This document shows, in pieces, positions 11,401 to 28,005 of a stretch of 28,529 bases of DNA (position 1 is the first letter of the stretch; each line of letters opens with the position of its first letter). The notes under the pieces are model-generated. The model was not told the DNA's origin and searched no databases. It saw nothing but the letters and a program-made list of their open reading frames with translations. The DNA lies in the IMG/VR virus record IMGVR_UViG_3300046751_001047, positions 1-28,529 of that record, one strand, 5' to 3'. Origin of the DNA: a virus. A program made the position numbers and the translations under genes.

Positions 11401-12361
11401 TTCCTTTATCCCGAAGATTTCTTTCCTTCTTTACCAAATCGCGACGGGCGAGGACTCCGTCAATATCTCCGCGCATAGCAGCCGATAATCTTTGTTTTTG
11501 CGCATCAAAGGATTTGGAAGTCTTGCCGGTTAAATGGTCGGTAGCGGAAGGGACTGCTTTTCTGGGATCGGTTTTTTCTAAATTGATAACTTCACCCGTC
11601 ATGTGATCAACAATCGGAGCCTCAAAAGAATATTGATTCAATAAATCATCAGTCGCTTTCTTGCTCTTAGGTGATGCGCTCCTAGCCTTGAGCTGTGCAT
11701 CCATTGCATCCCGGGCAGGGATTGGAATGTTGGTCAGCTGCTCGAATAATTGAAATTCTTGATTTCTGGCAGCGTCTGCGGTCTGTCTTCTGCGATCCTT
11801 CTCAGCTTTTAATCTAAGATATTTATCCCGCAATCCATTGGTGCTATCCCATGCTCCAAACTTTTTTAGATTCTCCTGGGCTGCAATCTTGCGGTCGGAA
11901 GATCCTCCGAAAAAGCCGTCCTCTTCCTGACTCGCTTTTACTTCCTCCGCTTTCATCTGATCGATGAACGAAAGCATTTCGTCATCATTATCAAAATCTC
12001 CGAATCCGCCGACGCTGTTGAAAAACGGTTGGAACTCGTTCTTTACAAAATCATCATACAACCCTTCGTAATGCTTGGCAGATCTTTCGTTCTCGGTAGC
12101 ATACTGTTTGAACTGACCGTGAGCTTTTTTGATTCCGTCATAGGCATCGAGTTCATCAAATACATTACTCGGACGCTGTGCAGGCTGAACCTCGTATCCG
12201 TAATCAATGGGTTCATATTGTGGCTGTGGAGCCTGAGGCATTGGGCCTCCGAATGGTTGATACTTTTTCTGTACCGGTTTGCTGGTAAATTGACTTAGGC
12301 TATCTTTCTTTTCGCCTGAGTAATCATCAGCCCCCAGATCTATATCGTCGAAGAGGGACAT
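2420..12361 (-). CDS. Giant polyvalent virion protein with HEAGH metallopeptidase-like motif
   Basis: A single uninterrupted 3313-residue frame, about 35% of the window. It resembles phage large polyvalent proteins, which are usually packaged in the capsid and ejected into the host. Visible parts: a Q/P-rich N-terminus; a glycine/alanine-rich hydrophobic stretch near residues 530-590 that could contact membrane; a zincin motif HEAGH at residues 867-871 with a possible downstream glutamate ligand in LAEEW; charged coiled-coil stretches roughly 1050-1300; two identical LNSDAG segments near 2030 and 2182; a helical region near 2260 (DVHGRSHQYFGKG); and a C-terminal region near 2890 (ARNVTVDFNQKGNL) followed by a hydrophobic helix (LIAGIAGAAFIINIL) and PLPLGYNLFW, which looks like large-polyvalent-protein-associated domain 38. 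The end is a lysine-rich coiled coil. It lies between the 794-aa gene and the portal. Peptidase activity and ejection are inferences from family knowledge. Confidence 0.8.
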   Translation of the reverse strand: MSLFDDIDLGADDYSGEKKDSLSQFTSKPVQKKYQPFGGPMPQAPQPQYEPIDYGYEVQPAQRPSNVFDELDAYDGIKKAHGQFKQYATENERSAKHYEGLYDDFVKNEFQPFFNSVGGFGDFDNDDEMLSFIDQMKAEEVKASQEEDGFFGGSSDRKIAAQENLKKFGAWDSTNGLRDKYLRLKAEKDRRRQTADAARNQEFQLFEQLTNIPIPARDAMDAQLKARSASPKSKKATDDLLNQYSFEAPIVDHMTGEVINLEKTDPRKAVPSATDHLTGKTSKSFDAQKQRLSAAMRGDIDGVLARRDLVKKERNLRDKGIFFSQNGLIDGRPIGLSRNDVDLLDIAEMKAAGMTSYRGKPLELAMEELGGEERLKAAKIMESVYGAKSNYEDAQLTFLKVAGSAKAEKAREKMEAARDDMQKVISLAAENGLDNELFEQAESTSWLGGLGNAIQRGVLMSEMSDYTPDFLTNTLDADEMQKFIEIASEIEKLPTSSTMKRVRETKSDGFLDAMGNLLFDNPAAIPEMFVESLSSFLPAAIKSMIVTVPTGAAIGTAITPGAGTLAGAGVGAKASWGVASFVLEASGMALEGMQELGVDWKNPKVFAAAWTNESIRNKIQKKMVQKGAPIAAADMLTGFMAGKVMGVANHTGNAMFKGGKLLDKAAWNKSAGSVARFTTFQKTRNAAAELGFDSTMGMSGEYLGQWAAKEPGEAWDWDAIAAEGLVGVGPGILSSALEMRGRNANYFSNAPIEISGEQTTETGTTGTVTRAGYSAPYQTFNDAESMGDYLSTLPNANPEAVEFTKDWIAKLYAKNPEAMANLKIAISPRTPDANMENRGTFEARDGQTLIYLNEKEFSADPMATFMHEAGHLARVITMDEKQLMDVWSTIGKDAQLDAYAQYYTKRVGISFKDLDEATQAKVESAFNKTDNAVLAEEWFSYQFGQYLLGENSQVENDVKAELKTYADQLGDAYTQYSGTDAKGKDLFKLMFDQLGLGPAPETTINQPAPQPGINSDPQAALNAMPGTPQEKSMIARALNAMAGQKLLTESASFYTNMERQAVVAASEKEVDEQSEEGAEKKKTEEKAPQKSYKQNQGPLLPAQEAKLRAKQPQAKGSLPDQREAAETEISQLDRLIPESEADRKNLGRALATVRQVEKTLTDEDALNKRIDEAVNKLGNKASVGSIIAEVLRFGPMIDAAPISIIKELRKEISQIERGKGKQRLQTTKAVEDMLAEARERIDDVVGQLENRVAEIDKQIDSLKKGADVKEAQKEIKSLEEKKALAEAYIQVIAPEQRTFEWRDTVHSLYYVKRITKEGVSGRIDLTLGMLANMKDFDKYEIYSTVNNKRQKKTENQKPHHVLWDFVNGGFDEKKVKGDRNQPKSFLGGKSLNQYLMLLEAARASARWKQQKNIGSDAITTDSRVVSYPENFGEETTFGAVVAERIRRRMNRSVKDEEGKPVKDKDGKAVPQIERVPVFTENPTTEEVLALKIAGGATLEGLGDPSDSHKDFDMALYVVERQRMQEEQISSTEAGKADLILDLNNQFEYAEESEDPFMRVKPGAPLSKTLSQIISLTARRQFLDKYDKVVKEDVEGEKVEKKARLEALEKMRETIDGQIVEGYTELVKNPKSKLFAQRLNAVVPYPKQLVKDQSTEVNTAGFEVKNEKNFNFRRPLEDTDVTVKAENGHGAFTASKVYETFDVIKAYAKGRELKAGEFEKQRTTIDQTEQNIDRPTTMETGADLLSSVDINAVDFAQWFLGGEKQSEKNKGDTGRSRAARQMIKLADIPSSQYTEKTINQLGGGLGEGLLPFVFADFITAMHKKFGVKGFDDQIQTIRDRINEISQEQVNEQGTRTKEAGVIKPADLETLANDMVDVSKPIVQAVLDAEAIDVYGQFDPRSETVLERDTQMGEATDADENSAEIRDDSGNEDTQVASKKSDTDEKQTEAGETIFGRGDTDRQALRERIMLEYKDDPKVAGALEGMSYEQLSEFMKEDMGKEVNELLQKELERRATRREFNQAFTSDGSGKILNSDAGKPINDLNVVRKIIALTKKRIPLTRIAELGSQWDYDELSAIHFKARDRSTYEGGKSDVQVAEELLKSLKSARAAMAEGDAERAQQETAFIEKLMSNDMVMNNKWSDINDDPEAIDLQVEAEGFGGSISDLITKARKFKKDGTSPRTLNSDAGRVLTSDVNPNLTKATLLSKIAGDRELKNEFKEWAATRKESYDKGSFRMNMIDRMSPVKLLSQSSLEVFEKLGLKKGSLLHNWLDVHGRSHQYFGKGGNGLEQSRLDYYDPLTEIMRKHNVTQKEAGEYLIARAAPSKNLQIEAKAEEVLSDMRKEDEQGKGKQYKELYDFYYDKDGNFIRNSGVETKKALEVMANMESKPEFVEFLKEFLPVYYDMNKDGLDQLSYGQLIMSEIRDAEGKKIQSIDEKTAMITAASRFDFNTGKADKYGNKYTSKVKLADNYAYSPLQGFEGETEQFFDQEEAWEEFGSKSTGAGKGFNQPKGALVLQGAFGRKSDGVKSYGPDPVTVVGNAINQHTSAMIRAKKNEVSQSFGNMYALLYSVLNPTKNPAKDSSEFFDFANQDPELKEIFETLQTIHEPENKDLLKELTAEFNKVFDKPFEPSETKMAYEVKTDDAGIADSKIGLVRRTLSNEFKNDQNVFVFRRAGQPYFIRFNPKTDEGLRMADAMNNLRYESLPPILGGFNVGTRLMAKMFTSANLAFILPNFFRDVLTARIHLSEDNKKVLIKDALNRKNLAGFMKSIYQTEADIKNGINPNRKEEISKILALRDPKKILESGNRQAMYQYYKENGGKVDMFRHPTLVEKIKDIQKSLDGKDGWTKASWKKFWDFVDTANTAVENSIRASTFWAAIKDGRGPDEAAVIARNVTVDFNQKGNLTQTFGSLYVFFGASMNSIDRFFTTFSRRSPKERAKLIAGIAGAAFIINILNRLMDDDEDEEMPDYDTISSYKRDTNAILPLPAGLPEFFNDEKDTGFFSLPLPLGYNLFWTMGQVMGDMFAKNVFGRGGAGLVEATTRFTDSAMSAFNPVGGSSGLAVALTPTPFVPLIELYANKNFMGSPIRYADRPFEVPKPGHMQDPKGTPEHWNKLSKAINSFMGGSDDVKGSFAGMLGNNPLYYRSDEDITFDISGNQMRHLVMGYLGGPGQKADALFGSLFSAGSGKPSIENVNDIPIVNRFLRATTYGSATRGTFYEVRDAVKNAEKAVKSAKQINAKTYTAVLNDNRELLKLSSSISQLDKQKNKMRRLKKQIEGSKTLTEEQKTQRVDDLQKKELNLMVKVIKQAQSLGIS
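5801..5819 (-). repeat. 19-nt repeat inside giant gene encoding LNSDAG, copy 2
   Basis: Second copy, encoding LNSDAG near residue 2182, followed by Arg. Identical codons over all six residues suggest a recent duplication or selection on the DNA. Confidence 0.7.
6254..6272 (-). repeat. 19-nt repeat inside giant gene encoding LNSDAG, copy 1
   Basis: Identical in sequence to 5801-5819 and in the same frame; encodes LNSDAG near residue 2030 of the 3313-aa protein, followed by Lys. See findings. Confidence 0.7.
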
Positions 12362-12371
12362 TTCTCAGGAG

Positions 12372-14756
12372 TTAGGAGAAGGGGTTGTATCTTCTACCCT
12401 TAGGTCGATACTCTTCGCCAAACGGGTTATTTTTGCTGTAATAATCTGCCGTCTCCTGATCGACCTCTTTCTTTAATCGATCGGTATTCAGAGTTGGATA
12501 AAGTTTACTCATACGACCGCTGTTAGCGTTACCCAAAGAAGAGAACGGAGATTCCCGCATCTGCTTTTTTGCGTAATCCTGTGCTGCTTTTCTTTGATCG
12601 GAATAGCTGCGGTAACCGACTATTCCATCTCTTCCGTAAATTGGTACCATCTTCTCTTTAGGTCCTTGCATCTCGCTGGCCGGCTCATCCTCAAGGAATG
12701 GGTCTGCGGATGGAAGTTTTGGGGAAGAGGCTGGAGCCTGCGGGGCCGGAGCCTGCGGCGTATTATTCTTTGCTCTTATAACTTTTGGAGCCTGTTCATA
12801 ATTATCCATATCAAAGACATCTGGTATGGCTCTTGATATTTTATTTAGGGCTGCAGGATCGCCGTCGTAAATCGGTCCCATGGTGTCATCAAAGTTCTTC
12901 AAGGCTTTTGCTCGGATCGGTTCAAAACGATTCATGAGCGATGGTGGGGCCTTCCTCATCTTTGCCAACTCGTCGGGAGATATCGGTTTGTTAAACTGAC
13001 TCTGTAGATCATCGACATAGTCATAGAGGTCAAAATTCTTTAATTTATCGAGAAAACCTTCCTCTTGCTTAGGCGCCCTTGATGGGGCGGCAGCGGGTTT
13101 ACTAGCGGGTTTATTTTGTAGAAGCGGATCGGGCTGAGAATATCCACCTTTACCGTCGTATATTCTTCCGTCCGGTTTTGGTAACCTTCGGACGAGGTCT
13201 CGTATATCTCGGTCGTTTTGTAACTCAGAGCGAGTATCGGTACTGACCTGAGACTGTATACCCTCCATATCGATTTCAGGACTTTCGGGGGTTCTTACCT
13301 GCGGGTCGTACGATTCGGGTGATACAACGGGATTTGTTGCGGTGCTTGGCGGAATCGGAGGATTTGCTTTTTCATAAGCATCAACCTGGTTCATCAAATC
13401 AACCGAATCCATAGGTAAAGCCGTAGACATTCCATTGTCTGGTTGCGCGATTGAAGGTGCTGGGGTGTTTAAAATACTAGGCTGCTTTGGTGCAGGTGCC
13501 GGATTCTGTAAACTTGTAAGACCTCGAGCGGGATCGTATGGGGCTTCGCCCTCACGAATACCGCGATTCTGAAAAGCTTGCGGAAGTGCTGCTTGCTTCG
13601 CGGCATCATCCATGGGAGAGACATTTAAAGTTTCGAGTTCCGTCATCGGAACACCGTTGGGTGCAGATATTTGGTCGAAGCCTTGGGTCGCTGTTGTTTT
13701 TACTTCTGGGCTGATTGCGGGAGTTCTTGCAAAATCACGCATCTGATCCGTACGCATTTCATTAAGACTAGGTGCAGGAGCTTCGATTTTTGGGCCTCCA
13801 GCTTCATTTCTTGCTGGAGTCTCTGGAACTACTGGAACTTTCTTACTTTCGTCCCAATAAACTATATCCTCCAACGATCCGCGAGGAGATTCGAGGGCAT
13901 TCATTTTTTGCCCGGTCATCTCGCCGGCGGGTGCTCCAAGAGATCTGTTGATATTATAATTCCGGATCATCTTGATCTTTTGATCGCGATCCATTGCGTC
14001 CCAATCCTCGGCGGAGCGGGCATTACCTTCCGCATCGGGTGTATTTGCATACAGCTGGCGATACTGGTCGTTCAAGGTATTCAGAATTACATCCTCTTCG
14101 CCGGCTCGTTTTCTGGCTTTTTCGGATTTTTTTAACTCGGCAAGCTCGTTTTGAAGGCGGCGCTTAGCTTCCTGTTCGAGTTGAGCCTTAACGGGGTTTG
14201 CCCATCTTGCGTTACCATTTAACCGGTTAATAAAATCGGGCTCGGCATTAGCGGCTGCCCGAGCAAATGCAGATTTTCCATTATCGGGCTGGTCAAGTGT
14301 TGGGCGGGCTGCTTGAGCCTGATTTTGTGGAGCGGGGGCTGCTGGCTGCGGCTTTATACCGAATGCTTTATCGGCTGCCGCTTGCGATGCCTTGGAACGA
14401 CCTGCGGAACTCGTCTGAATTCGTGAGTCTTGCTCAAGTCGTGCATCTTCAGCAAAAATATCATTGTAGAAATCGTCTGATTTTGTCGTATTTCCCGACT
14501 CAACCGCGGTATCTATAAATTTTTTAAATTCATCAAAATCTTTAAACTCAATACCGTTAGACATTAAATTAGTAGCATATGCATCCGATAAACCGAGTTC
14601 CGAGATAAACGCGGTTGGATTATCAATGGTTAAACCGCCTTTTGGATCCGTTTTAAGGCCCAAATCTTTTAAGGATAAATCTTTGGTCTTTTTTACAGAC
14701 TGCTGCTTATTATAATTATCAGTCGGAAAAACCGGAACATAACTATTCTCTACCAT
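12372..14756 (-). CDS. Disordered proline/alanine/glutamine-rich putative virion protein
   Basis: A 794-residue protein between the terminase and the giant protein. Residues 1-120 look ordered and acidic-helical (GLSDAYATNLMSNGIEFKDF, FKKFIDTAVESGN). Most of the rest is low-complexity, rich in P, A, Q, N and S, with blocks such as APQAPAPQAPAS and many short PAPS/PQ stretches, so it is probably intrinsically disordered. A helical patch near residue 560 (EEGFLDKLKNFDLYDYVDDL) and the basic tail EYRPKGRRYNPFS break the pattern. The frame has no interruption, and the stop is 10 nt before the next start. No family is recognised. By position and composition it could be a scaffold, an internal virion protein or a partner of the giant protein; none of these is shown. 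The ATG lacks a clear Shine-Dalgarno. Confidence 0.75.
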   Translation of the reverse strand: MVENSYVPVFPTDNYNKQQSVKKTKDLSLKDLGLKTDPKGGLTIDNPTAFISELGLSDAYATNLMSNGIEFKDFDEFKKFIDTAVESGNTTKSDDFYNDIFAEDARLEQDSRIQTSSAGRSKASQAAADKAFGIKPQPAAPAPQNQAQAARPTLDQPDNGKSAFARAAANAEPDFINRLNGNARWANPVKAQLEQEAKRRLQNELAELKKSEKARKRAGEEDVILNTLNDQYRQLYANTPDAEGNARSAEDWDAMDRDQKIKMIRNYNINRSLGAPAGEMTGQKMNALESPRGSLEDIVYWDESKKVPVVPETPARNEAGGPKIEAPAPSLNEMRTDQMRDFARTPAISPEVKTTATQGFDQISAPNGVPMTELETLNVSPMDDAAKQAALPQAFQNRGIREGEAPYDPARGLTSLQNPAPAPKQPSILNTPAPSIAQPDNGMSTALPMDSVDLMNQVDAYEKANPPIPPSTATNPVVSPESYDPQVRTPESPEIDMEGIQSQVSTDTRSELQNDRDIRDLVRRLPKPDGRIYDGKGGYSQPDPLLQNKPASKPAAAPSRAPKQEEGFLDKLKNFDLYDYVDDLQSQFNKPISPDELAKMRKAPPSLMNRFEPIRAKALKNFDDTMGPIYDGDPAALNKISRAIPDVFDMDNYEQAPKVIRAKNNTPQAPAPQAPASSPKLPSADPFLEDEPASEMQGPKEKMVPIYGRDGIVGYRSYSDQRKAAQDYAKKQMRESPFSSLGNANSGRMSKLYPTLNTDRLKKEVDQETADYYSKNNPFGEEYRPKGRRYNPFS

Positions 14757-17549: not shown

Positions 17550-17842
17550 CAGCACTTCCAGCGACGACGCGCCTGTCTTAACCTGCTGTTAGGATTCTTG
17601 GCAGCCTTAGGAAATTTTTTCATCTGACCAGCAGAACGGGCGCAATAAGATTTACGACGCTTGGCCGAGTTACTCCCCTTCTTTACCTTGCCGGTAACCG
17701 CAGTCTTGAGTTTGGATCCTGGATTATCGCGACGATATTTTGCGACACCCTTTTTTGTCATGCCAGCACCACTCTTGGTCGGACGCTTATGGCCTCCCTT
17801 GATCGAGTGACCCTTCATGGTTCCCGTCTTCTTACTTGCCAT
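17549..17842 (-). CDS. Highly basic conserved phage protein (DUF6321-like)
   Basis: A 97-residue, very lysine/arginine-rich protein. The core, with MTKKGVAKYRRDNPGSKL and RRKSYCARSAGQMKKFPK, then KNPNSRLRQARRRWKC, is a pattern I recognise from many marine phages and some algal viruses. I believe it corresponds to Pfam DUF6321, but the number should be checked. Its function is unknown; such basic proteins may bind nucleic acid, perhaps in the virion. It overlaps the preceding 43-aa ORF by 11 nt and the next gene by 1 nt (TGATG). An AAAGGT precedes the ATG. No transmembrane segment is seen. Confidence 0.8.
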   Translation of the reverse strand: MASKKTGTMKGHSIKGGHKRPTKSGAGMTKKGVAKYRRDNPGSKLKTAVTGKVKKGSNSAKRRKSYCARSAGQMKKFPKAAKNPNSRLRQARRRWKC

Positions 17843-20897: not shown

Positions 20898-21009
20898 ACT
20901 TGAGCCCCGTGTTGTGGGGAAGGATTCACCCTGTGCATAAACGAACGGATAGGTAGATATGGAATGCATAGATAAACAGACTTGAGCTGTGAAGTATTCG
21001 AATATTGGA

Positions 21010-21030
21010 ATGTATGATAGTAGGCTAGCC
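21010..21030 (-). repeat. TGTATGATAG..GCTAGCC motif, copy in 21-kb leader
   Basis: Matches the two tandem copies at 27879-27900 and 27905-27926. On the minus strand the three read GGCTAGC or GGCTCGC, then 2-4 nt, then TATCATACAT. It lies in the leader of a minus-strand unit here and in the control region at 27.9 kb. It could be a promoter or an operator. Confidence 0.55.
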
Positions 21031-21045
21031 ATGATGACTCGGGAC

Positions 21046-21083
21046 AAAAGTAAACCCTGCCAACACGATGTGTGCTGACAGGG
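21046..21083 (-). terminator. Terminator of the accessory operon
   Basis: Minus-strand RNA can form CCCUGUCAGCAC/GUGUUGGCAGGG (21083-21072 with 21066-21055), 12 pairs including two G-U that would be mismatches in plus RNA, with a 5-nt loop. A T-rich tail TTTACTTTT follows. It lies about 30 nt after the stop of the 150-aa gene and ends the 21-27 kb transcription unit. The tail is followed by the same sequence as the other terminator (see findings). Confidence 0.75.
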
Positions 21084-21114
21084 CTGACTATTACTAACTA
21101 ATGAACAAATGGGC

Positions 21115-21567
21115 TTACTTGGTTTTTATTTTTGTTCGATTAACAATGCGGGCTTCGTCTTTCCAAGTACCGCTGATTTCTGGGTCGTTATCTAATTGAT
21201 TGAAGGCTAGTTCTTCTGCTTCATCTACCGTATTAGCAGCAACTGTGAATGTACGATAGGTAGTGGCAGACATTTCTATTTCGTATGATTGTGGTTTGGG
21301 TATTTTATTTGCGACCATATCGTTACGAAAGTCTAAGTCTGCGTGTATATAGTTACCTGATTTATCCCAATAAGCTAATTCAAGTACATCTCCACAGTCG
21401 GATTCGATATCATGTTTATTGGTCCAAGTTTTCCATTCATCGATATCAACTTTGGCGATGTTTAGTAACCAATCATTTAGATCTGATTTATCTGAGATTG
21501 TACCGTTTTGGTTTACATATAATTCTCCGTGAGAACTTATGAAGTGTATAGTATTTTGAATGCTCAC
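21115..21567 (-). CDS. Hypothetical protein with DpnD/PcfM-like C-terminus
   Basis: A 150-residue acidic protein, the last gene of the accessory operon. The N-terminal two-thirds are unrecognised (contains WLLNIAKVDIDEWKTW and DVLELAYWDKSG). The C-terminal 50 residues, YEIEMSATTYRTFTVAANTV then DEAEELA, match the beta-strand plus EA-helix pattern of DpnD/PcfM-like and related small phage domains of unknown function. The start is a GTG at 21567 overlapping the upstream stop as GTGA, so translation is coupled. A terminator follows about 30 nt downstream. Confidence 0.65.
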   Translation of the reverse strand: MSIQNTIHFISSHGELYVNQNGTISDKSDLNDWLLNIAKVDIDEWKTWTNKHDIESDCGDVLELAYWDKSGNYIHADLDFRNDMVANKIPKPQSYEIEMSATTYRTFTVAANTVDEAEELAFNQLDNDPEISGTWKDEARIVNRTKIKTK

Positions 21568-21854
21568 GATACAGGTTGAATAATTTGTACGGTGTCATTG
21601 GTTTCAAGCCAGACATGTGCGCCACATGATAGTGGTTTGAATGGGCTGTAGGTTAGACGAAGTGAATCGTTAACCATGACTTGATAGGCATATGTATTAC
21701 GGTTGTATTCTTTGACCGTGAATACTGGTTTGAGATCATCAATGGTGATTGATTTACCATTATCGTGAGCTTGTTTAATAAGCTTATTGTTATGCTTGAT
21801 GTTATGTTGATTAACATGAATCTTTTTAGTGTTGGTATTTGTTATGCAGTTCAT
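21564..21854 (-). CDS. Hypothetical protein, 96 aa
   Basis: An Asn/Lys-rich 96-residue protein (begins MNCITNTNTKKIHVNQHNIK). The second half looks beta-rich (YAYQVMVNDSLRLTYSPF, HVWLETNDTVQII). The ATG overlaps the upstream stop as ATGA and is preceded by AACCACACACC with only AA between. The element itself encodes the end of the upstream protein (PHTK). No family is recognised. Confidence 0.65.
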   Translation of the reverse strand: MNCITNTNTKKIHVNQHNIKHNNKLIKQAHDNGKSITIDDLKPVFTVKEYNRNTYAYQVMVNDSLRLTYSPFKPLSCGAHVWLETNDTVQIIQPVS

Positions 21855-22186
21855 TTGGTGTGTGGTTGATTGTTTGAATAATGTAATATGTGTTTATATA
21901 TGTCGGTATTGAGCCCGTAGCGGAAATCATTGTCTTCGCATGGTTCATCAACTTGATATGCTGAGACATCCCAATTCCATCGAGATGGGTCTTTGTCTGC
22001 TCCGTTGTCACATTCGTAGATATTGTAATCGATGAAGTTACCGTCAGGTAATTCGTAGCTGTTCCAATAGTCGAAGTTGTCACCTTTTGTTTTTACATCA
22101 GGATTGGCTTCTACTTTTTTGATGTGATTAATAGCTAGATCGATTAGTTTTTGTTCGATGGTTGGATCGATAGTTAGATTGCTCAT
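21851..22186 (-). CDS. Hypothetical acidic protein, 111 aa
   Basis: A 111-residue acidic protein with a helical N-terminus (IEQKLIDLAINHIKKVEANP) and an aromatic, Asp/Asn-rich remainder (FDYWNSYELPDGNFIDYN, SRWNWDVSAYQVDE). The C-terminus NQPHTK is encoded by the pre-start element of the next gene, with an ATGA overlap. The start at 22186 lies 2 nt after the previous stop (TAATCATG); no Shine-Dalgarno is visible. No family is recognised. Confidence 0.65.
   Translation of the reverse strand: MSNLTIDPTIEQKLIDLAINHIKKVEANPDVKTKGDNFDYWNSYELPDGNFIDYNIYECDNGADKDPSRWNWDVSAYQVDEPCEDNDFRYGLNTDIYKHILHYSNNQPHTK
21857..21867 (-). promoter_or_regulatory. AACCACACACC pre-start element, copy a
   Basis: Exact copy; 2 nt (AA) separate it from the ATG at 21854. 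It takes the place of a Shine-Dalgarno sequence, which is absent. It lies inside the coding end of the upstream gene. Confidence 0.7.
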
Positions 22187-22188
22187 GA

Positions 22189-22479
22189 TTATTGAATGTC
22201 ATTTATGCTTGTACCTGTACCATCGGGATTGAGTTGCCAGGATGGTGTTTGCAATGTGACATCTTGATAATGTAGTGGACCAAGATGTGATTCGGGTGCA
22301 GGCACGATAGTGAATGGTGAATGTTCAACGCTTCGTGTCATGTTAGCTTCATGATTACGAATGTCTCGTATGCATGACCATAGAGTACCTTGATGTATGG
22401 GTTTACCGTTTTCCATAATTAGGTGAGATTTTTCGATGTGATATCTTTGTTCTGTTGGGAAGTTTTCTAGTATATTCAT
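22189..22479 (-). CDS. Hypothetical protein, 96 aa
   Basis: A 96-residue protein beginning MNILENFPTEQRYHIEKSHL, with conserved-looking IRDIRNHEANMTRSVEHSPF in the middle and a Pro/Gly-rich C-terminus. The ATG is preceded at 2 nt by an exact AACCACACACC element, which supports this start. It is followed after 2 nt by the next gene. No family is recognised and no membrane segment is seen. Confidence 0.65.
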   Translation of the reverse strand: MNILENFPTEQRYHIEKSHLIMENGKPIHQGTLWSCIRDIRNHEANMTRSVEHSPFTIVPAPESHLGPLHYQDVTLQTPSWQLNPDGTGTSINDIQ

Positions 22480-22481
22480 TT

Positions 22482-22492
22482 GGTGTGTGGTT
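22482..22492 (-). promoter_or_regulatory. AACCACACACC pre-start element, copy b
   Basis: Exact copy, 2 nt (AA) upstream of ATG 22479. It overlaps the TAA stop of the preceding gene. Confidence 0.7.
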
Positions 22493-22736
22493 AGATTATT
22501 TTAACGGTGTATTGACCGCCTGTCGGTTCGCAGTTGAATGCGCGGCCGAAGTATTCGAGAGTTTCGACGGGTTCGAACCATTTCATGATTTTTGTTTTTG
22601 TTATGTTTTGGTTAAACAGTAGGCATGTATATCCGTATCTGTAGATATTACCTTTGCTGTCTTTATTTATTGATTTGAATACTGGTCGATTGAAGTTATC
22701 GATACCTTCGAATGTTACTGTGTCGTGAATTTTCAT
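22491..22736 (-). CDS. Hypothetical small beta-rich protein, 81 aa
   Basis: An 81-residue protein, MKIHDTVTFEGIDNFNRPVF at the start and GGQYTVKII at the end. Alternating hydrophobic residues and NIYRYGYTCLLF, then MKWFEPVETLEYFG suggest a small beta-barrel. The ATG follows ACTAACT, as in the 124-aa gene, and the CACACACC element lies 41 nt upstream, separated by a conserved hairpin. No family is recognised. Confidence 0.65.
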   Translation of the reverse strand: MKIHDTVTFEGIDNFNRPVFKSINKDSKGNIYRYGYTCLLFNQNITKTKIMKWFEPVETLEYFGRAFNCEPTGGQYTVKII

Positions 22737-22745
22737 AGTTAGTAA

Positions 22746-22790
22746 ATGAGCAGTTATTGCGACATACTCAGGTCGTTGGTGTGTGGTTTA
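22746..22790 (-). repeat. 45-nt leader repeat with conserved hairpin, copy 1
   Basis: Matches 23051-23095 at 40 of 45 positions. On the minus strand it holds the pre-start element (22778-22788), then CGACCTGAG and a stem TGAGTA/TGCTCA with a 12-nt loop. The difference from copy 2 within the stem turns a C-G pair into U-G, so pairing is kept. It lies 10 nt ahead of the start of the 81-aa gene. Confidence 0.65.
22778..22788 (-). promoter_or_regulatory. AACCACACACC element, copy c (distant from start)
   Basis: Exact copy but not next to a start: AACGACCTGAG follows, and the next ATG is 41 nt downstream, behind the repeat hairpin. Confidence 0.6.
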
Positions 22791-23042
22791 CTGTTCTAAT
22801 TTAGTTTCAATGACATTTGTGAATGTGTCGTGGTATTCCATGAGGAAGTATTTTATTTTATCGAATTCGTTATCGGATATATTTTGTGCATCTTTACTGT
22901 TGATGTATTCGATATACCAATCGGATTCTTCTAGATATTCGGTGAGGTGTTTGATTATTGTTTTATTGGATACATTGTTTTTGTAGATGTGTATGATTTC
23001 GTCGTGTCGACTGTTAGCTATTATTAAGTATTTTAATTTCAT
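22788..23042 (-). CDS. Hypothetical helical protein, 84 aa
   Basis: An 84-residue protein beginning MKLKYLIIANSRHDEIIHIY. It has a beta-like first strand and then helices rich in E, K, I and Y (TIIKHLTEYLEESDWYIEYI, DKIKYFLMEYHDTFTNVIET). Not a membrane protein. Its start follows the second 45-nt leader repeat. The gene leads directly into the first repeat (its stop overlaps the element). No family is recognised. Confidence 0.65.
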   Translation of the reverse strand: MKLKYLIIANSRHDEIIHIYKNNVSNKTIIKHLTEYLEESDWYIEYINSKDAQNISDNEFDKIKYFLMEYHDTFTNVIETKLEQ

Positions 23043-23050
23043 GATTAGAT

Positions 23051-23095
23051 ATGAGCAGTTGTTACGACATGCTCAGGTCGATGGTGTGTGGATTA
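23051..23095 (-). repeat. 45-nt leader repeat with conserved hairpin, copy 2
   Basis: Second copy of the repeat at 22746-22790. On the minus strand TGAGCA/TGCTCA pairs perfectly around a 12-nt loop. It lies 9 nt ahead of the start of the 84-aa gene. An alternative stem CGAC/GTCG would exclude the first, so a two-state switch is conceivable. Confidence 0.65.
23083..23093 (-). promoter_or_regulatory. ATCCACACACC element, copy d (variant, distant)
   Basis: Variant of the element (AT instead of AA at its 5' end), followed by ATCGACC and the leader hairpin; the next ATG is 40 nt downstream. Confidence 0.55.
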
Positions 23096-23099
23096 GATA

Positions 23100-23315
23100 T
23101 TAGATGACGCGGAACCAGAGACCGCTGAGATCTTCTGCACTGAAGCCGTGAACTTTGTCATTGTCGCAGTCATTGAGCCATTCAATGAATTCGCTGATCA
23201 TTAGATCTGAATCGCCCAATCCTTTAGTACTGACGGTCGTCCATCGGTCGTTGTCTTCTGTATCTTCGCGATGAACTTCATCGATGAAGCCGCATTGTAT
23301 TTGTGTGTAGCTCAT
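23100..23315 (-). CDS. Hypothetical acidic protein, 71 aa
   Basis: An acidic 71-residue protein beginning MSYTQIQCGFIDEVHREDTE, with LMISEFIEWLNDCDNDKVHG and an aromatic end (LSGLWFRVI). A longer in-frame start at 23372 would overlap the upstream gene by 50 nt; the ATG at 23315 lies 7 nt after that stop and its context (GATCATGAGC) resembles the 22186 start. No family is recognised. Confidence 0.6.
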   Translation of the reverse strand: MSYTQIQCGFIDEVHREDTEDNDRWTTVSTKGLGDSDLMISEFIEWLNDCDNDKVHGFSAEDLSGLWFRVI

Positions 23316-23322
23316 GATCGGA

Positions 23323-23931
23323 TTAATGCAGAGGTTTGAGATCGGAGACATATGATAGATCGTCCGGGTCAATCTTATCGTTGCGTAGCTCCATCAATAG
23401 TTGATAGGTCGAATGCCATGAGTCATTGGCGTCATATTTGCCACCCATTTCGCTGTATAAGATGTAATCAAGTACGGCGGTCACACAGTTTGCTGTGGGT
23501 AAGGCTGTGACATTTTTTGTTTTGTTTTCTTGGATCGATTGTACAGCTTCTTCTACACTTGTTCGTGCATTATCGATAAGATATTCTTCTTCGAAGTTTT
23601 CTGTATTGTTAGATAACCAATCAGCCATATGTTGTGCTGTTGTATCGAGTTCTTTGATCCAGTGATCGAAGTCGTTGGTTATCTTTTTTGGCTCATCAAC
23701 AATTTTAGCAGCGCGTGTTTGATGATAGTCAGTTGATTCGATTACTTGTGTGATGTTTGCACTGTAGCAGTATTCTGATTCAATTAGCTGCGCATATAAT
23801 TTTTGTGCGTAATCTAATGATTCGCATACTTGGTAATTATTTGTTGTTACTTCTGGATTTAGTTCAGATTTTTTATTAGTTGTACACCAGACGACGATGT
23901 AGGTTTTATCAGATTCTTTATTGTTATTCAT
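23323..23931 (-). CDS. Hypothetical protein, 202 aa
   Basis: A 202-residue acidic protein. The N-terminus (TYIVVWCTTNKKSE, then YQVCESLDYAQKLYAQLI) looks like a beta strand plus helix of a small alpha/beta domain, followed by charged helices (WIKELDTTAQHMADWLSNNT, NARTSVEEAVQSIQENKT). No catalytic motif is seen. The start lies 13 nt after the gp88-like stop, with no Shine-Dalgarno and no CACACACC element. No family is recognised. Confidence 0.65.
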   Translation of the reverse strand: MNNNKESDKTYIVVWCTTNKKSELNPEVTTNNYQVCESLDYAQKLYAQLIESEYCYSANITQVIESTDYHQTRAAKIVDEPKKITNDFDHWIKELDTTAQHMADWLSNNTENFEEEYLIDNARTSVEEAVQSIQENKTKNVTALPTANCVTAVLDYILYSEMGGKYDANDSWHSTYQLLMELRNDKIDPDDLSYVSDLKPLH

Positions 23932-23944
23932 ATGTAGTTAGGTG

Positions 23945-24697
23945 TTATACGGATTTGGCAGCAGAATAGCCGGTGTATCCGTGGTTCTTGCTAAGGTTAC
24001 GCAAGGCTTTGCTTGCATCAGATCCGGCAGGTTGGGTGCCGTGGATTAATTGACCGAATGATGGTCCTGGGTTGTATGCATGACTGTCGTCGTGATCAAG
24101 TTCGAGACCTTTGCGATCAGCTTCGTCATAGGAGTATATAACTTCGGCAGACTTTAGATTGTGCTCATCAATTAAATGATCGAAGCGTCCACCACGACTA
24201 GCGTTCAATTCGAAGTTTGAAGGTATTTGGTCGAGGTTTTGAGTCCAGAGGTCGATGCGTTTTGTGTATGCATAGAACTTTGTAGGCTTGAACTCTTTGG
24301 CTAATCGCATCCACGCAAGGAAGTAACTTCTGTTGAAGAAATCACCACCGACATGGGCTCGGATGATAGGTCGTTGGCCGTGGTTTTTGATGTATTTGTT
24401 ATGCAGTGGTTGTAAGCTTGCATGTAGTTTTGTGAACATTTGTTTGCTTGAGCATTTGCGTAATATATTGAAGTTAACATTACGGTTGCGTCGTACTGCA
24501 CTGTGTCGTGCTTCCATTGTTGCTGCGTAGCAACGATAGACTGTATCAGGACCGTCGGTAATTTTACCTGTTTTTGGATCAGCTTTGGACAAACACTCAA
24601 GAGCAGCAGGGCACGAATGCCCCGATGCTAGTGAGAAGTGAATAATACGTTTGGGTAACTTGGCGTTACCGTGTTGCCAATTGAGTTTATTGTTCAT
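23945..24697 (-). CDS. gp88-like phage protein
   Basis: A 250-residue protein resembling the GP88 family of phages (named after gene 88 of mycobacteriophages; function unknown). The diagnostic N-terminus is present: LNWQHGNAKLPKRIIHFSLA (5-24) followed by SGHSCPAALEC with Cys29 and Cys35, and YRCYAATMEARHSAVRRNR with Cys56. These cysteines may bind metal or an iron-sulfur cluster; that is inference. Later parts include RAHVGGDFFN, KFYAYTKRIDLW and a charged C-terminus. An in-frame upstream start at 24793 exists, but the ATG at 24697 is 8 nt after an AACCACACACC element and overlaps the stop of the CxxC mini-protein as ATGA, so it is preferred. Confidence 0.75.
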   Translation of the reverse strand: MNNKLNWQHGNAKLPKRIIHFSLASGHSCPAALECLSKADPKTGKITDGPDTVYRCYAATMEARHSAVRRNRNVNFNILRKCSSKQMFTKLHASLQPLHNKYIKNHGQRPIIRAHVGGDFFNRSYFLAWMRLAKEFKPTKFYAYTKRIDLWTQNLDQIPSNFELNASRGGRFDHLIDEHNLKSAEVIYSYDEADRKGLELDHDDSHAYNPGPSFGQLIHGTQPAGSDASKALRNLSKNHGYTGYSAAKSV

Positions 24698-24819
24698 GCT
24701 GTTTTGGTGTGTGGTTTTATTGTTTTCCATTGTAAGCAGGGGAAACACCCCCCTAACTGATATTGGTTGTAGTAGATGATGCGTGAATTGCACATTGGGC
24801 AGATTCGCATCGAGTTCAT
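24694..24819 (-). CDS. 41-aa CxxC...CxxC mini-protein (possibly longer)
   Basis: From ATG 24819 the frame gives MNSMRICPMCNSRIIYYNQY followed by QLGGCFPCLQW and a basic tail. CPMC and CFPC 15 residues apart form a small zinc-ribbon-like site. The stop overlaps the gp88-like start as ATGA. Upstream the frame stays open and protein-like (GFALKILRNRKKYTPTEISE) to about 24921 but has no ATG, GTG or TTG; only ATT codons (24918, 24909) are available next to the DUF932-like stop. Either the short form is made or a rare start is used. It may bind nucleic acid; not shown. Confidence 0.5.
   Translation of the reverse strand: MNSMRICPMCNSRIIYYNQYQLGGCFPCLQWKTIKPHTKTA
24706..24716 (-). promoter_or_regulatory. 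AACCACACACC pre-start element, copy e
   Basis: Exact copy, 8 nt upstream of ATG 24697 (gp88-like). It lies in the end of the CxxC mini-protein frame, where it encodes KPHTK. Confidence 0.65.
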
Positions 24820-24904
24820 TATTTCGACAGTGCGGTTAGCTTCTGAGATCTCTGTAGGTGTATATTTTTTACGGTTACGGAGGATCTTGAGGGCGAATCC
24901 GAGA

Positions 24905-25729
24905 TTAATTGTTGGAATCTATTAGTTGTAGCTGACCTTGAGATTGATTGTATTCAAGCTCAGGAACATATGATGACATTTCATGTTCGATTTGATTGTT
25001 GCAGAAATGATCGAATACATTGTGCAGTGCGATACCACGCTTGGCTGAGTCAGCGATTTGTACTGGGGATTCTTTGTGAATCTCAGTAAATGCGTTGAAT
25101 GCAGACCAGGCATTGCGATCGGAGAATGCATCGTGACGAGGTTCAACATACTCTTCGAATACTTTGCGAGCTTTGCTGGGGTTGATTGCTTTGTGGATGA
25201 TAGCATCACCAAGCAATTGAGCGAAGTCGGAGTCAGATAGCTCAGTAGCTTTGTATCCGTTGTATCGATGTTCGTTCTTGATCCATGTATTGATGACACC
25301 GTTGAACATGTCAGATACACGATTATTGAACGATTCGTGTACATTTTTCGTGTGCTTGCTGGAGATGATGTGATCACCAGAGAAGCAACCGTTACTGCAT
25401 ACGAGAACAGATGAACCGGAACATGCGGATGCACCGAAGCGTTTGTTGTGGCTGTTACGAATGCCCAGCATGTTACGGTAGACACCATTGTCTGATTCCA
25501 TGTACATGGTTGCGAACATGTCAGGGTATGGTTGAACAATACCGTCAGACATTACATCGACAAGGCTGTAGTGAATCTCGTCGATTGCTAGGTTGCGAGC
25601 ATCGGCATGTTCGATGACAGTTTCCATGACACGATGGTGTGCCATTGGTTGCCATGTATCGGTGGCACCGGGCGTTGGTACTGATGATAGTCCGTTGAAG
25701 TCAACGGTGCGTGATTTATTTAATCTCAT
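24905..25729 (-). CDS. DUF932-like phage/plasmid protein
   Basis: A 274-residue protein resembling the DUF932 family of phages and plasmids, whose role is unknown. The recognisable core is NMLGIRNSHNKRFGASACSG (86-105) then VLVCSNGCFSGDH (108-120), where the CSNG turn is the family signature. A helical C-terminal half follows (AQLLGDAIIHKAINPSKARK, AWSAFNAFTEIHK). The N-terminus LSSVPTPGATDTWQPMAHHR fits the usual lead-in. Length is typical. The ATG at 25729 has an AACCACACACC element 18 nt upstream; the spacer is longer than in other copies. Confidence 0.78.
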   Translation of the reverse strand: MRLNKSRTVDFNGLSSVPTPGATDTWQPMAHHRVMETVIEHADARNLAIDEIHYSLVDVMSDGIVQPYPDMFATMYMESDNGVYRNMLGIRNSHNKRFGASACSGSSVLVCSNGCFSGDHIISSKHTKNVHESFNNRVSDMFNGVINTWIKNEHRYNGYKATELSDSDFAQLLGDAIIHKAINPSKARKVFEEYVEPRHDAFSDRNAWSAFNAFTEIHKESPVQIADSAKRGIALHNVFDHFCNNQIEHEMSSYVPELEYNQSQGQLQLIDSNN

Positions 25730-25747
25730 GATATTATTGTTAGTTTT

Positions 25748-25758
25748 GGTGTGTGGTT
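25748..25758 (-). promoter_or_regulatory. AACCACACACC element, copy f
   Basis: Exact copy, 18 nt upstream of ATG 25729, in the gap after the WYL_2-like gene. The spacer contains ACTAACAATAAT. Confidence 0.6.
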
Positions 25759-25766
25759 GTTGTTGA

Positions 25767-26111
25767 TTAAGCCATAGACAGAATGTTGTCTGGCTGTTTA
25801 GAGGTTGTAGTTGTCAGATCGATAAGCTCAGTAATAGGCTGAGGTTTGATGTTGTATACGCGTCCGTATCCTCGAACTTGTAGCACAGTGTCGAGGTTGA
25901 GTGTTCGATATCCACCATCGTTACCCATGAGCCAGATTGTAATGTAGCTGTTATCTGGTTTTGCGATTGATCGACCAGTACCTTTGAGATGGCGTTTAAC
26001 TTTCATTCGGGCATTGGCAGATCTGATGTCGCCGTTTTTCTTGATCCATGTAATATGGAATATTGAACCCTGTAATGATCTCAGGAATTCTAGGAGTTTA
26101 GTTCTGTGCAT
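25767..26111 (-). CDS. WYL_2-like (DUF2693) small-barrel protein
   Basis: A 114-residue protein. Residues 10-70, SIFHITWIKKNGDIRSANAR then KVKRHLKG and later YITIWLMGNDGGYRTLNLD, follow the pattern of WYL_2/DUF2693 proteins, a Sm-like SH3 barrel found in phages and thought to bind nucleic acid or ligands. The C-terminal part (YNIKPQPITELIDL then a Thr-rich tail) is unrecognised. The frame is open to 26174, but the ATG at 26111 lies 2 nt after the stop of the 28-aa membrane peptide, so it is preferred. Confidence 0.6.
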   Translation of the reverse strand: MHRTKLLEFLRSLQGSIFHITWIKKNGDIRSANARMKVKRHLKGTGRSIAKPDNSYITIWLMGNDGGYRTLNLDTVLQVRGYGRVYNIKPQPITELIDLTTTTSKQPDNILSMA

Positions 26112-26113
26112 AT

Positions 26114-26200
26114 CTATTGCGTAGGATAGTTGAAGAACAGATCGTAGATCATGTATCCAAGAATGCATGACCACGGTAGCGTTAGTATTAGTAGTTCCAT
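26114..26200 (-). CDS. 28-aa membrane mini-protein
   Basis: ATG 26200 to TAG 26114-26116 encodes MELLILTLPWSCILGYMIYD followed by LFFNYPTQ: one hydrophobic helix with an aromatic end. The ATG follows ATCCACACACC with 2 nt between, the same geometry as at larger genes, and the stop is 2 nt before the next start. It could be a small toxic or regulatory membrane peptide, or only a translated leader for the WYL_2-like gene. No family is recognised. Confidence 0.5.
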   Translation of the reverse strand: MELLILTLPWSCILGYMIYDLFFNYPTQ

Positions 26201-26202
26201 AT

Positions 26203-26213
26203 GGTGTGTGGAT
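26203..26213 (-). promoter_or_regulatory. ATCCACACACC pre-start element, copy g
   Basis: Variant copy (AT at 5' end), 2 nt upstream of ATG 26200; it reveals the 28-aa ORF. Confidence 0.6.
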
Positions 26214-26801
26214 TTAGTTGTTATTGGATGATTCACGCCAGAGTTCTAAGTCGAGCTCACGGGGTGACATGTTGAATTTACAGGCACACCCAAGGAACAT
26301 TGCTTCGAGACATGCATATTCATTAGGATCCTGTGGTGTTTGTTCAGGCACGGGATATTTTGGGAATTCTCGTGCAAGAAAGCGTAATATATGAACATCG
26401 AGAGCGGCGACTTCTTGCCATGGTCGATTGTTCATTACAAAGAAGGATGCGGTTTTGAGACCGATACCCGGGATGATAGTGAAGTCATCTCGGTGAGCGA
26501 ACCGGAGGAAGTTACCGGATCGTATTTTGCGTCCGTCTTCTAGCTCGCCGAAGCCGATTGTTTCCCATGCTTTGGTGAGTCGATCGTATTGACCGATGCC
26601 ATGTTTACGGAGTAATCCGCGTATACGATTACCGTGCGAGCGTATAACACTAGTTGCAGGCTCATCTTCCATTAATGCATTGAAGCGTGGTGTGATCGTT
26701 GCGGATGATTTGCCAGCTACACAGGTTGTCCAGAGCAGGAACTCTGTTAGCTGACTTACATCCCGAGATGCAGAGTATGGTTTTTTGTAGTCGATAGTCA
26801 T
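26214..26801 (-). CDS. HhH-GPD DNA glycosylase/lyase (8-oxoguanine glycosylase-like)
   Basis: A 195-residue enzyme predicted to remove damaged bases, probably 8-oxoguanine, and nick the abasic site. The hairpin motif IIPGIGLKTASF (109-120) has the catalytic-type Lys116, and AALDVHILRFL (132-142) has Asp135, the pair used by bifunctional glycosylases. The N-terminus TEFLLWTTCVAGKSSATITP and KHGIGQYDRLTKAWE (67-81) resemble the archaeal-type (AGOG-like) glycosylases rather than MutY. The endonuclease-III cluster pattern C-x6-C-x2-C-x5-C is absent, as expected for that type. The longer start at 26867 lies in the HNH gene; ATG 26801 follows an AACCACACACC element at 3 nt and is preferred. Repair may protect the genome or serve the phage in nucleotide recycling; the substrate is inferred. 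Confidence 0.78.
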   Translation of the reverse strand: MTIDYKKPYSASRDVSQLTEFLLWTTCVAGKSSATITPRFNALMEDEPATSVIRSHGNRIRGLLRKHGIGQYDRLTKAWETIGFGELEDGRKIRSGNFLRFAHRDDFTIIPGIGLKTASFFVMNNRPWQEVAALDVHILRFLAREFPKYPVPEQTPQDPNEYACLEAMFLGCACKFNMSPRELDLELWRESSNNN

Positions 26802-26804
26802 GAT

Positions 26805-26815
26805 GGTGTGTGGTT
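26805..26815 (-). promoter_or_regulatory. AACCACACACC pre-start element, copy h
   Basis: Exact copy, 3 nt upstream of ATG 26801 (glycosylase). Confidence 0.7.
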
Positions 26816-26817
26816 GA

Positions 26818-27633
26818 TTAAGCGGCTTTTTGCCAGTTGAGTTTTGAGCCCTTGGATAGATTGTCATATGCCCAGAGCGGTTGAAGATTAGTGTAATGAA
26901 AACACTTTTTTTGTTCAGATGGTTTGGTTAGATCAAAGGATGCACAGGGTACGATGTGATCGATGTGCCACGCACCTTGATTTTGCCAAGACATGCCTAT
27001 TGTGAATTGTGATTCTAAGTGTTGTCTTAATTTAATTAGAGTACACCCTACTAGTTTTTGAGAAGAGAAGTACTTATCGGCTTTGAAGTTACGCAAAGCA
27101 TTTCTAATTCGGTCACTAATTAATTTTCTTAGTACGAAGTGTGGATCTGTTGCGTAGCGTATGGCTCTTTCAATTCTTCGTTTTTGTTTATATTTTTCTG
27201 TGTTTTGGTACGCTCGATCTGCTAGATTTTTATGTTTTTTATTTTCAGGTATTGCGTAGTGAGCTTTATGAATTTCAAGGTATTTTGCATAGTCTTCTGT
27301 TGTGAACCAGCGTTCTTGATTATATTTTGAATTCCACTTGTCATAGACTAAGTTAGGTTCTGTTGGATGCGGGTATCCTCGTTTGAAAGTACCTTTAGGT
27401 AACCCTGTCTTTAGTTTTGATTGAGGTATTTTTGTAACATTTTTAGTAGCTATACACTTCGCGGTTTTGCTATTTTTATGAGTCCAGTGTTCAGGAGTTG
27501 TATTACTGGGTCTGTAACCTACAAATAAATAATTCTTATTATTTGGGTGTATGTGATTTCTTTTAAATGTGTTTTTGGGTAGGTGGGTTTGAAGTTTAAA
27601 GTTAATGTGATTTTTATTTGTTTGATTTGGCAT
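26818..27633 (-). CDS. HNH endonuclease with duplicated N-terminal module
   Basis: A 271-residue basic protein. The C-terminal HNH domain reads GMSWQNQGAWHIDHIVPC (213-230), then ASFDL and CFHYTNLQPLWAYDNLSKGS (244-263), the WHIDHI...NLQPL.NLSKGS pattern of phage homing-type HNH nucleases. The N-terminus has an internal duplication: residues 13-50 (KLQTHLPKNTFKRNH...EHW) match 73-109 (KLKTGLPKGTFKRGY...ERW). These modules may bind DNA. The A/T- and K/N-rich composition differs from the late genes, which suggests recent entry as a mobile endonuclease. The ATG lies 3 nt after a variant of the pre-start element (AACCGCACACC), and the gene is the first of the minus-strand module. Confidence 0.85.
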   Translation of the reverse strand: MPNQTNKNHINFKLQTHLPKNTFKRNHIHPNNKNYLFVGYRPSNTTPEHWTHKNSKTAKCIATKNVTKIPQSKLKTGLPKGTFKRGYPHPTEPNLVYDKWNSKYNQERWFTTEDYAKYLEIHKAHYAIPENKKHKNLADRAYQNTEKYKQKRRIERAIRYATDPHFVLRKLISDRIRNALRNFKADKYFSSQKLVGCTLIKLRQHLESQFTIGMSWQNQGAWHIDHIVPCASFDLTKPSEQKKCFHYTNLQPLWAYDNLSKGSKLNWQKAA

Positions 27634-27636
27634 GTT

Positions 27637-27647
27637 GGTGTGCGGTT
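27637..27647 (-). promoter_or_regulatory. AACCGCACACC pre-start element, copy i (variant)
   Basis: Single G-for-A variant, 3 nt upstream of ATG 27633. It is the only copy with this change and also the only one with a complementary partner nearby (27720-27728). Confidence 0.65.
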
Positions 27648-27687
27648 AATTGTTAGTTAGTAGCAGGACACTAACCCCTGCTTTCTC

Positions 27688-27712
27688 CACCCCATAGGAT
27701 CTTAAAATCCTG
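27688..27712 (-). repeat. 25-nt repeat, copy 2
   Basis: Identical to 20873-20897, here 55 nt upstream of the HNH start. Contains the AGGAT/ATCCT hairpin and, on the minus strand, GGGGTGGAG, which might be part of a ribosome-binding or regulatory site. Confidence 0.75.
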
Positions 27713-27992
27713 CCTGAGCTAACCGCACCGCCTTCCCCACCCTTCCGTTGTAGAATATTGGATCTGCTGAATATGCAGGTTTTAGGATGCAGGGATGCAG
27801 GTTTTGGGGTAGAATCCGTAGGTTATTGGTCGGAACTAGGTAGGATGCAGGTTTTAGGATGCAGGAAGTACTGCTCACGCATGTATGATAGTTGCTAGCC
27901 AAATGCATGTATGATAACTGCGAGCCATCGATATTCGATTGACTCGAGCTCGGCCGGGGGGCATAAGAAATGCGTACAGTTGGTAATCTCAT
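27702..27992 (-). CDS. Doubtful 96-aa ORF across the repeat region
   Basis: ATG 27992 follows an exact AACCACACACC element at 2 nt, so translation may start here; the first codons ATGAGATTA equal those of the DUF932-like gene. The protein (MRLPTVRISYAPRPSSSQ...) has no protein-like pattern after residue 20, because it runs through the direct repeats (ILKPA occurs twice) and ends in the 25-nt repeat. It is probably a gene remnant or a chance frame. Confidence 0.25.
   Translation of the reverse strand: MRLPTVRISYAPRPSSSQSNIDGSQLSYMHLASNYHTCVSSTSCILKPASYLVPTNNLRILPQNLHPCILKPAYSADPIFYNGRVGKAVRLAQAGF
27773..27865. repeat. Iteron-like cluster of ATGCAGG repeats
   Basis: Five copies of ATGCAGG start at 27773, 27787, 27795, 27845 and 27859. 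The 21-nt unit at 27773-27793 recurs exactly at 27845-27865. Lying between divergent transcription units, such repeats are often binding sites for a replication initiator or regulator. No initiator gene is in the window. Confidence 0.6.
27879..27926. repeat. Tandem 22-nt repeats GCATGTATGATA..TGC.AGCC
   Basis: Copies at 27879-27900 and 27905-27926 differ at 3 of 22 positions and start 26 nt apart, between two and three helical turns. A third relative is at 21010-21030. Binding sites for a regulator, or promoters on the minus strand, are possible. Confidence 0.6.
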
Positions 27993-27994
27993 AT

Positions 27995-28005
27995 GGTGTG
28001 TGGTT
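27995..28005 (-). promoter_or_regulatory. AACCACACACC pre-start element, copy j
   Basis: Exact copy, 2 nt upstream of ATG 27992 of the doubtful 96-aa ORF. Confidence 0.6.

Follow-up and report, generated by a model that had tools for sequence, protein, structure and literature searches.

A start-associated word without a Shine-Dalgarno in phages

Cluster K mycobacteriophages carry start-associated sequences (SAS), short asymmetric words found 11-19 times per genome, in one orientation, 3-7 bp before an ATG (Pope et al., 2011; PMC3203893). SAS accompany non-structural genes only, are attached to non-homologous genes and are in some cases joined by an inverted-repeat element (ESAS); their function is unproven, and their word, GGGATAGGAGCCC, holds the Shine-Dalgarno (SD) core AGGAG (PMC3203893). 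Here we describe the 11-mer AACCACACACC, repeated on the minus strand of a viral contig of 28.5 kb (IMG/VR record IMGVR_UViG_3300046751_001047, positions 1 to 28,529; hereafter the window). An earlier, sequence-only reading of this DNA knew of no described element of this form, which is too strong: SAS belong to the same class of element and are its nearest described example (PMC3203893), and ACA motifs are known enhancers (PMC3879156). Like SAS, the 11-mer lies within a few nt of starts, in one orientation, at non-structural genes only. Unlike SAS, it consists of A and C alone, does not match the AGGAG-bearing word at up to two mismatches, and has no SD-like site at its starts (0 of 83). The imperfect 17-bp inverted repeat of ESAS has no counterpart, as no upstream column is conserved; the structure that joins a subset of copies is instead a 29-nt pseudoknot, which is not tied to one side of the word, and the spacing is looser. 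Because the defining AGGAG core is absent, the element is classed as a variant of start-associated sequences and not as an SAS.

Three other systems invite comparison. ACA motifs enhance initiation, more than 100-fold in one gene, without strict spacing, and are silenced by GcvB (Yang et al., 2014; PMC3879156). The present leaders share the ACA repeats in the initiation region (3.0 per 35-nt leader, against 0.6 in late-gene leaders) and the tolerance of spacing (0-45 nt), whereas the known enhancers belong to enterobacterial host genes, where they cooperate with an SD, and have no single fixed word. Some phages have C-rich ribosome-binding sites that lack an SD, and such sites function in vitro (PMC3310771); here, too, an SD-less C-rich sequence stands immediately ahead of AUG, but those sites are a loose class selected in vitro, with 16S pairing proposed, whereas the complementarity of our word to Escherichia coli 16S rRNA is at chance (longest run 7 nt, null mean 6.6, with E. 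coli rRNA standing in for that of the host). The operators of T4 RegA, too, are unstructured and sit at the AUG of many early mRNAs or immediately 5' of it, but they are A+U-rich, show no clear sequence conservation and have a known repressor (PMC3014915).

Ten copies in the window

The minus strand of the window holds ten sites between 21857 and 28005, seven exact and three with one mismatch:

27995-28005, minus strand: exact copy, 2 nt ahead of ATG 27992
27637-27647, minus strand: copy AACCGCACACC, 3 nt ahead of ATG 27633 of the endonuclease VII-like gene (271 amino acids)
26805-26815, minus strand: exact copy, 3 nt ahead of ATG 26801 of the phrog_11575 gene
26203-26213, minus strand: copy ATCCACACACC, 2 nt ahead of ATG 26200 of a hydrophobic microprotein of 28 amino acids, MELLILTLPWSCILGYMIYDLFFNYPTQ
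25748-25758, minus strand: exact copy, 18 nt ahead of ATG 25729 of the DUF932 gene
24706-24716, minus strand: exact copy, 8 nt ahead of ATG 24697 of the GP88 gene
23083-23093, minus strand: copy ATCCACACACC, 40 nt ahead of ATG 23042, with a pseudoknot in between
22778-22788, minus strand: exact copy, 41 nt ahead of ATG 22736, with a pseudoknot in between
22482-22492, minus strand: exact copy, 2 nt ahead of ATG 22479; supplies the AA of the upstream gene's TAA stop
21857-21867, minus strand: exact copy, 2 nt ahead of ATG 21854; overlaps the codons for the ...PHTK end of the open reading frame (ORF) 21851-22186

Such a cluster is far beyond chance: between 21 and 28.5 kb, the minus strand has ten matches at up to one mismatch where dinucleotide shuffles have a mean of 0.29 (maximum 2 in 200 shuffles; 34-fold), and seven exact copies where shuffles have 0.01. 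At the same tolerance there are none on the plus strand and none in the late region of the window; two further matches with two mismatches (22946 and 25706) fall within coding sequence and mark no start. The sequence-only reading had located all ten sites and given their spacings correctly (2-3 nt at six sites, 8 nt and 18 nt at one each, 40-41 nt at two), and the PHTK ending that it reported is real (ORF 21851-22186 ends ...NNQPHTK); the two-base variants that it allowed for are not, each inexact copy (23083, 26203, 27637) being one mismatch away. At the GP88 gene, an in-frame ATG further upstream, at 24730, would put the copy within the ORF.

Conservation across an uncultured family

Searches with the terminase, GP88 and DUF932 proteins retrieved a large IMG/VR family, with contigs of up to ~69 kb; the relatives in this analysis mostly look marine, all are uncultured, and many records are fragments. 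Besides the window, nine contigs carry the clustered motif: eight (G001-G003, G006, G007 and G009-G011) with the same word, and G008 with AACAACACACC. The copies run in the sense orientation, in most of the nine contigs on both divergent non-structural arms; G004 has at most traces of the motif and G005 has none. Ten gene families bear it in at least two members, and none of these is structural; the strand and module specificity first proposed for the window is supported.

What is conserved is the word and nothing around it. In 84 copies with unrelated flanks, the conserved columns are positions 1-12 only, AACCACACACCA. The DUF932 leader has a match (up to one mismatch to either form of the word) in nine of 11 family members; there and at the MR(L/F)NPDFFE-type genes the word is kept at spacings of 3 to ~28 nt while the remaining leader is replaced. 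The sequence-only reading had staked its case on the word standing ahead of orthologous genes in related phages, and it does so, with changed flanks and spacing, at the DUF932, MR(L/F)NPDFFE-type and DNA polymerase genes. G008 begins the word with AACA- in seven of 11 copies, whereas the other members mainly have AACC-; a shift of this kind across a lineage suggests a trans-acting reader. Tandem copies occur in G001 (57982/57994) and G009 (35005/35019).

The form AACCACACACCAWATG is present in 51 stretches. Those with several copies look like members of the same family, apart from one repetitive coding stretch (L279), and the single copies look like chance, with family assigned by appearance and not by contig-by-contig kinship; on these grounds, the motif's occurrence in unrelated phages was rejected. 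Among the literature matches listed for the exact word, none is about such a phage element.

Position at starts and the missing Shine-Dalgarno

Family-wide, 95 copies are non-redundant, as judged by flank identity rather than by a tree. In 40 of them the nearest ATG lies 0-5 nt away, where 11.2 would be expected, and in 72 it lies within 20 nt, where 34 would be; the distances peak sharply at 2-3 nt (33 copies). An ATG is found within 45 nt of 83 copies and opens an ORF of at least 45 amino acids in 61 of these (null, 34%). None of the 83 has an SD-like site (GGAG, GAGG, AGGA or GGGG at 4-18 nt), which bears out the earlier observation that these starts lack one, and G makes up 5% of the motif leaders as against 18% of late-gene leaders. 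The companion claim, that small genes of the late operon use GGAG-like sites instead, does not hold in general: a clear GGAG precedes one of 12 late-side starts in the window (18566, ccaggagac), and with starts chosen mechanically, as they were throughout, SD-like sites precede 11% of late genes as against 10% of random 16-mers. The early/late contrast is thus weak, and an SD as the signal of the late module was rejected.

The word also marks a gene that had escaped notice. The ATG 2 nt downstream of the 26203 copy opens not the longer ORF but the 28-amino-acid microprotein (26114-26200, minus strand), which is absent from the ORF list and overlaps the next gene. Similar peptides are found in two relatives (G003 and G011) and in the stretch L253, and in three of the four genomes the motif stands 2-3 nt ahead.

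A pseudoknot as a separate module

The structured inserts behind the 22778 and 23083 copies had been noticed before, as hairpins; on covariation, the predicted fold is an H-type pseudoknot:

23052-23080, minus strand: H-type RNA pseudoknot CGAC-c-TGAGCA-t-GTCG-taacaac-TGCTCA, from sequence and covariation
22747-22775, minus strand: H-type RNA pseudoknot CGAC-c-TGAGTA-t-GTCG-caataac-TGCTCA, with G-U in stem 2, from sequence and covariation

Its consensus is N-GAC-C-UGAGCA-U-GUC-N'-nnAAAC-UGCUCA. The outermost pair of stem 1, left out of the search, is standard in 71% of 118 different elements as against 36% in shuffles (maximum 53%; these statistics ignore shared ancestry), with the four Watson-Crick types at roughly equal frequency, and stem 2 varies in concert (UGAGCA/UGCUCA, UAAGCA/UGCUUA, UGAGUA/UACUCA, UGGGCA/UGCCCA). 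Elements of 27-30 nt occur in leaders and intergenic regions of more than 120 IMG/VR stretches (including L132-L211) and of L302-L310. The carriers are very diverse (Lactobacillus, Staphylococcus, crAss-like, Rhizobium, Roseobacter/Lentibacter and marine phages), and the element often stands ahead of an SD; it precedes scaffolding genes in Lactobacillus and Staphylococcus phages and a primase gene or a tRNA in crAss-like phages, and follows a ribonucleotide reductase gene in Zobellviridae. Rfam 15 has no match to it in the window or at eight loci, and no other match in the window. The architecture resembles, and no more than resembles, that of the T-even gene 32 leader, where a pseudoknot nucleates repression by gp32 (PMC3014915).

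Within the motif family, the pseudoknot lies either 3' or 5' of the word, and because their order varies the two are separate modules. Where the order is pseudoknot, motif, ATG (G008, G009, L137 and L184), the motif fills the position that AAGGAG takes when other phages carry this pseudoknot.

DNA polymerase A leaders have further features of their own: besides the motif, they conserve GTGGTGTG and a long hairpin (G001 64734-64813, in L099; G002 17697-17781, in L100; also G003, G007 and G011). Complements of 8-10 nt between GTGGTGTG and the motif region exist, and two alternative partners are available to GTGGTGTG, one proximal and the other CACACCAC, which lies in or after the motif; this may be a switch. 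We do not claim that GTGGTGTG sequesters the motif, as predicted minimum-energy structures of four leaders leave the motif almost wholly unpaired. Palindrome-like GTTATAC/GTATAAC sequences ahead of several genes (G002 8252, G001 61891, G011 23084, G008 6908) are possible repressor operators.

How might the word act?

The position of the word, its strand, its conservation, the lack of an SD and of promoter partners, and its change in one lineage are direct observations. From them we infer an action on RNA, a role in initiation, a positive effect and a dedicated reader. We see about an even chance that AACCACACACC(A) is a cis-acting mRNA element in the translation initiation region of non-structural genes, which are probably early or middle genes, and that it promotes initiation without an SD, or gates it. 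Three features favor action on RNA at the initiation step: the ATG-proximal peak, the absence of an SD together with the scarcity of G, and use of the word at the microprotein start. At the commonest spacing, the motif would fill the -3 to -14 zone, the usual place of an SD, in a G-poor and presumably unstructured leader; there it may serve as an ACA/CA-type element to which the 30S ribosome binds, with S1 as one possible contact, or which a phage or host factor recognizes by sequence and so marks the starts, and its loose distance from AUG (0 to ~45 nt) would match that reported for ACA enhancers. Four points weigh against such a role. Many family genes have neither motif nor SD, which shows that an SD-less start can do without the motif; several genomes place it upstream of the pseudoknot, 40-52 nt from ATG; its complementarity to E. 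coli 16S, 23S and 5S rRNA is not unusual, and pairing with E. coli rRNA was rejected on this chance-level match; and a generic ACA enhancer would not need the specificity of an exact 11-mer.

This exactness and the concerted change in G008 favor a specific reader over a merely unstructured leader. But would the reader activate or repress? From sequence alone, the two would look the same. The word may tentatively be seen as the operator of a coordinate translational repressor (a T4 RegA-like protein) or of a G/U-rich small RNA like GcvB that silences many early starts jointly, the best placed of the alternatives. One word common to many genes, next to or near AUG, would suit it, as would the tandem copies and a lineage-wide base change in step with a co-evolving reader; RegA binds at or just 5' of the AUG of ~30 mRNAs (PMC3014915), GcvB silences ACA enhancers via pairing (PMC3879156), and a protein with a match to the Sm-like WYL_2 family, below the Pfam cut-off, is encoded within the module. 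RegA sites, however, are A+U-rich and weakly conserved, no RegA homolog turned up among the proteins scanned, and the anti-motif GTGGTGTG prefers another partner in predicted folds. An ambitious form of the activating role, in which AACCACACACC, or AACAACACACC in one lineage, is a dedicated SD-independent initiation code on mRNA, read by a factor that the phage encodes or recruits and that steers ribosomes to early genes, replacing the SD module-wide, seems to us unlikely.

A transcription signal, with each gene having its own promoter element for an RNA polymerase that the phage supplies or modifies, is quite improbable. The motif is oriented, intergenic and module-specific, and the phage encodes a sigma-70 region-4 protein, but conservation stops at the 12-mer, the peak lies 2-3 nt from ATG, the word overlaps coding ends, and the sigma-like family is also present in motif-less G005. 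A promoter with partner boxes was rejected, as neither a -10/-35 partner nor any conserved column was found outside the word. Single-subunit phage polymerases have promoters with ~17-23 conserved bp, as against 12 here, and no such polymerase was found in 11 records (PF00940; the same search detects that of T7, and the genomes may be incomplete). The promoter role entertained in the sequence-only reading is therefore not supported. The sigma-70 region-4 protein maps to 12630-13175 of G002 (L100) and has relatives in most family members.

Very improbable, too, is an RNA processing site at which an endoribonuclease cuts at ACA to yield monocistronic, near-leaderless mRNAs: the repeated ACA, the location between genes and the copies 3-4 nt ahead of a pseudoknot that could cap the new 5' end would fit, but the ATG-proximal peak is left without reason, the pseudoknot precedes the motif in other copies, and no nuclease was identified. 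A gene-boundary word maintained by recombination during module exchange, with no expression role, would explain the location at gene borders and the tandem duplications but hardly a word kept close to ATG at orthologous borders with unrelated flanks, or substituted lineage-wide, and is scarcely credible.

Genomic setting

The right third of the window is a minus-strand series of small genes, among them those for the DUF932, GP88, endonuclease VII-like and WYL_2-like proteins; to its left, on the same strand, lie genes for the terminase, a 3313-amino-acid LPD38 polyvalent protein and the portal. The giant polyvalent protein gene (2420-12361, minus strand) sits between the portal and the terminase-side genes, with the LPD38 domain near the end of the protein. 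GC skew switches at 21000-28000, where the non-structural coding strand is G-poor and A/C-rich compared with most of the late region. No close cultured relatives were found, and 84,980 genomes held no relative of the terminase; among cultured phages even the nearest are distant, namely Roseobacter phage CRP-7 (terminase, 26% identity) and, for GP88, cyanophage protein at 38-40%.

Implications

The motif can be used as a gene finder, since it flags where a conserved microprotein (20-28 amino acids) begins. Beside the still unexplained SAS of mycobacteriophages, it offers a second, sequence-unrelated case of a word associated with starts. If it acts in initiation as proposed, a clean start signal that is natural and free of SD, recurs throughout a module and has changed lineage-wide would make SD-less initiation in bacteria directly testable.

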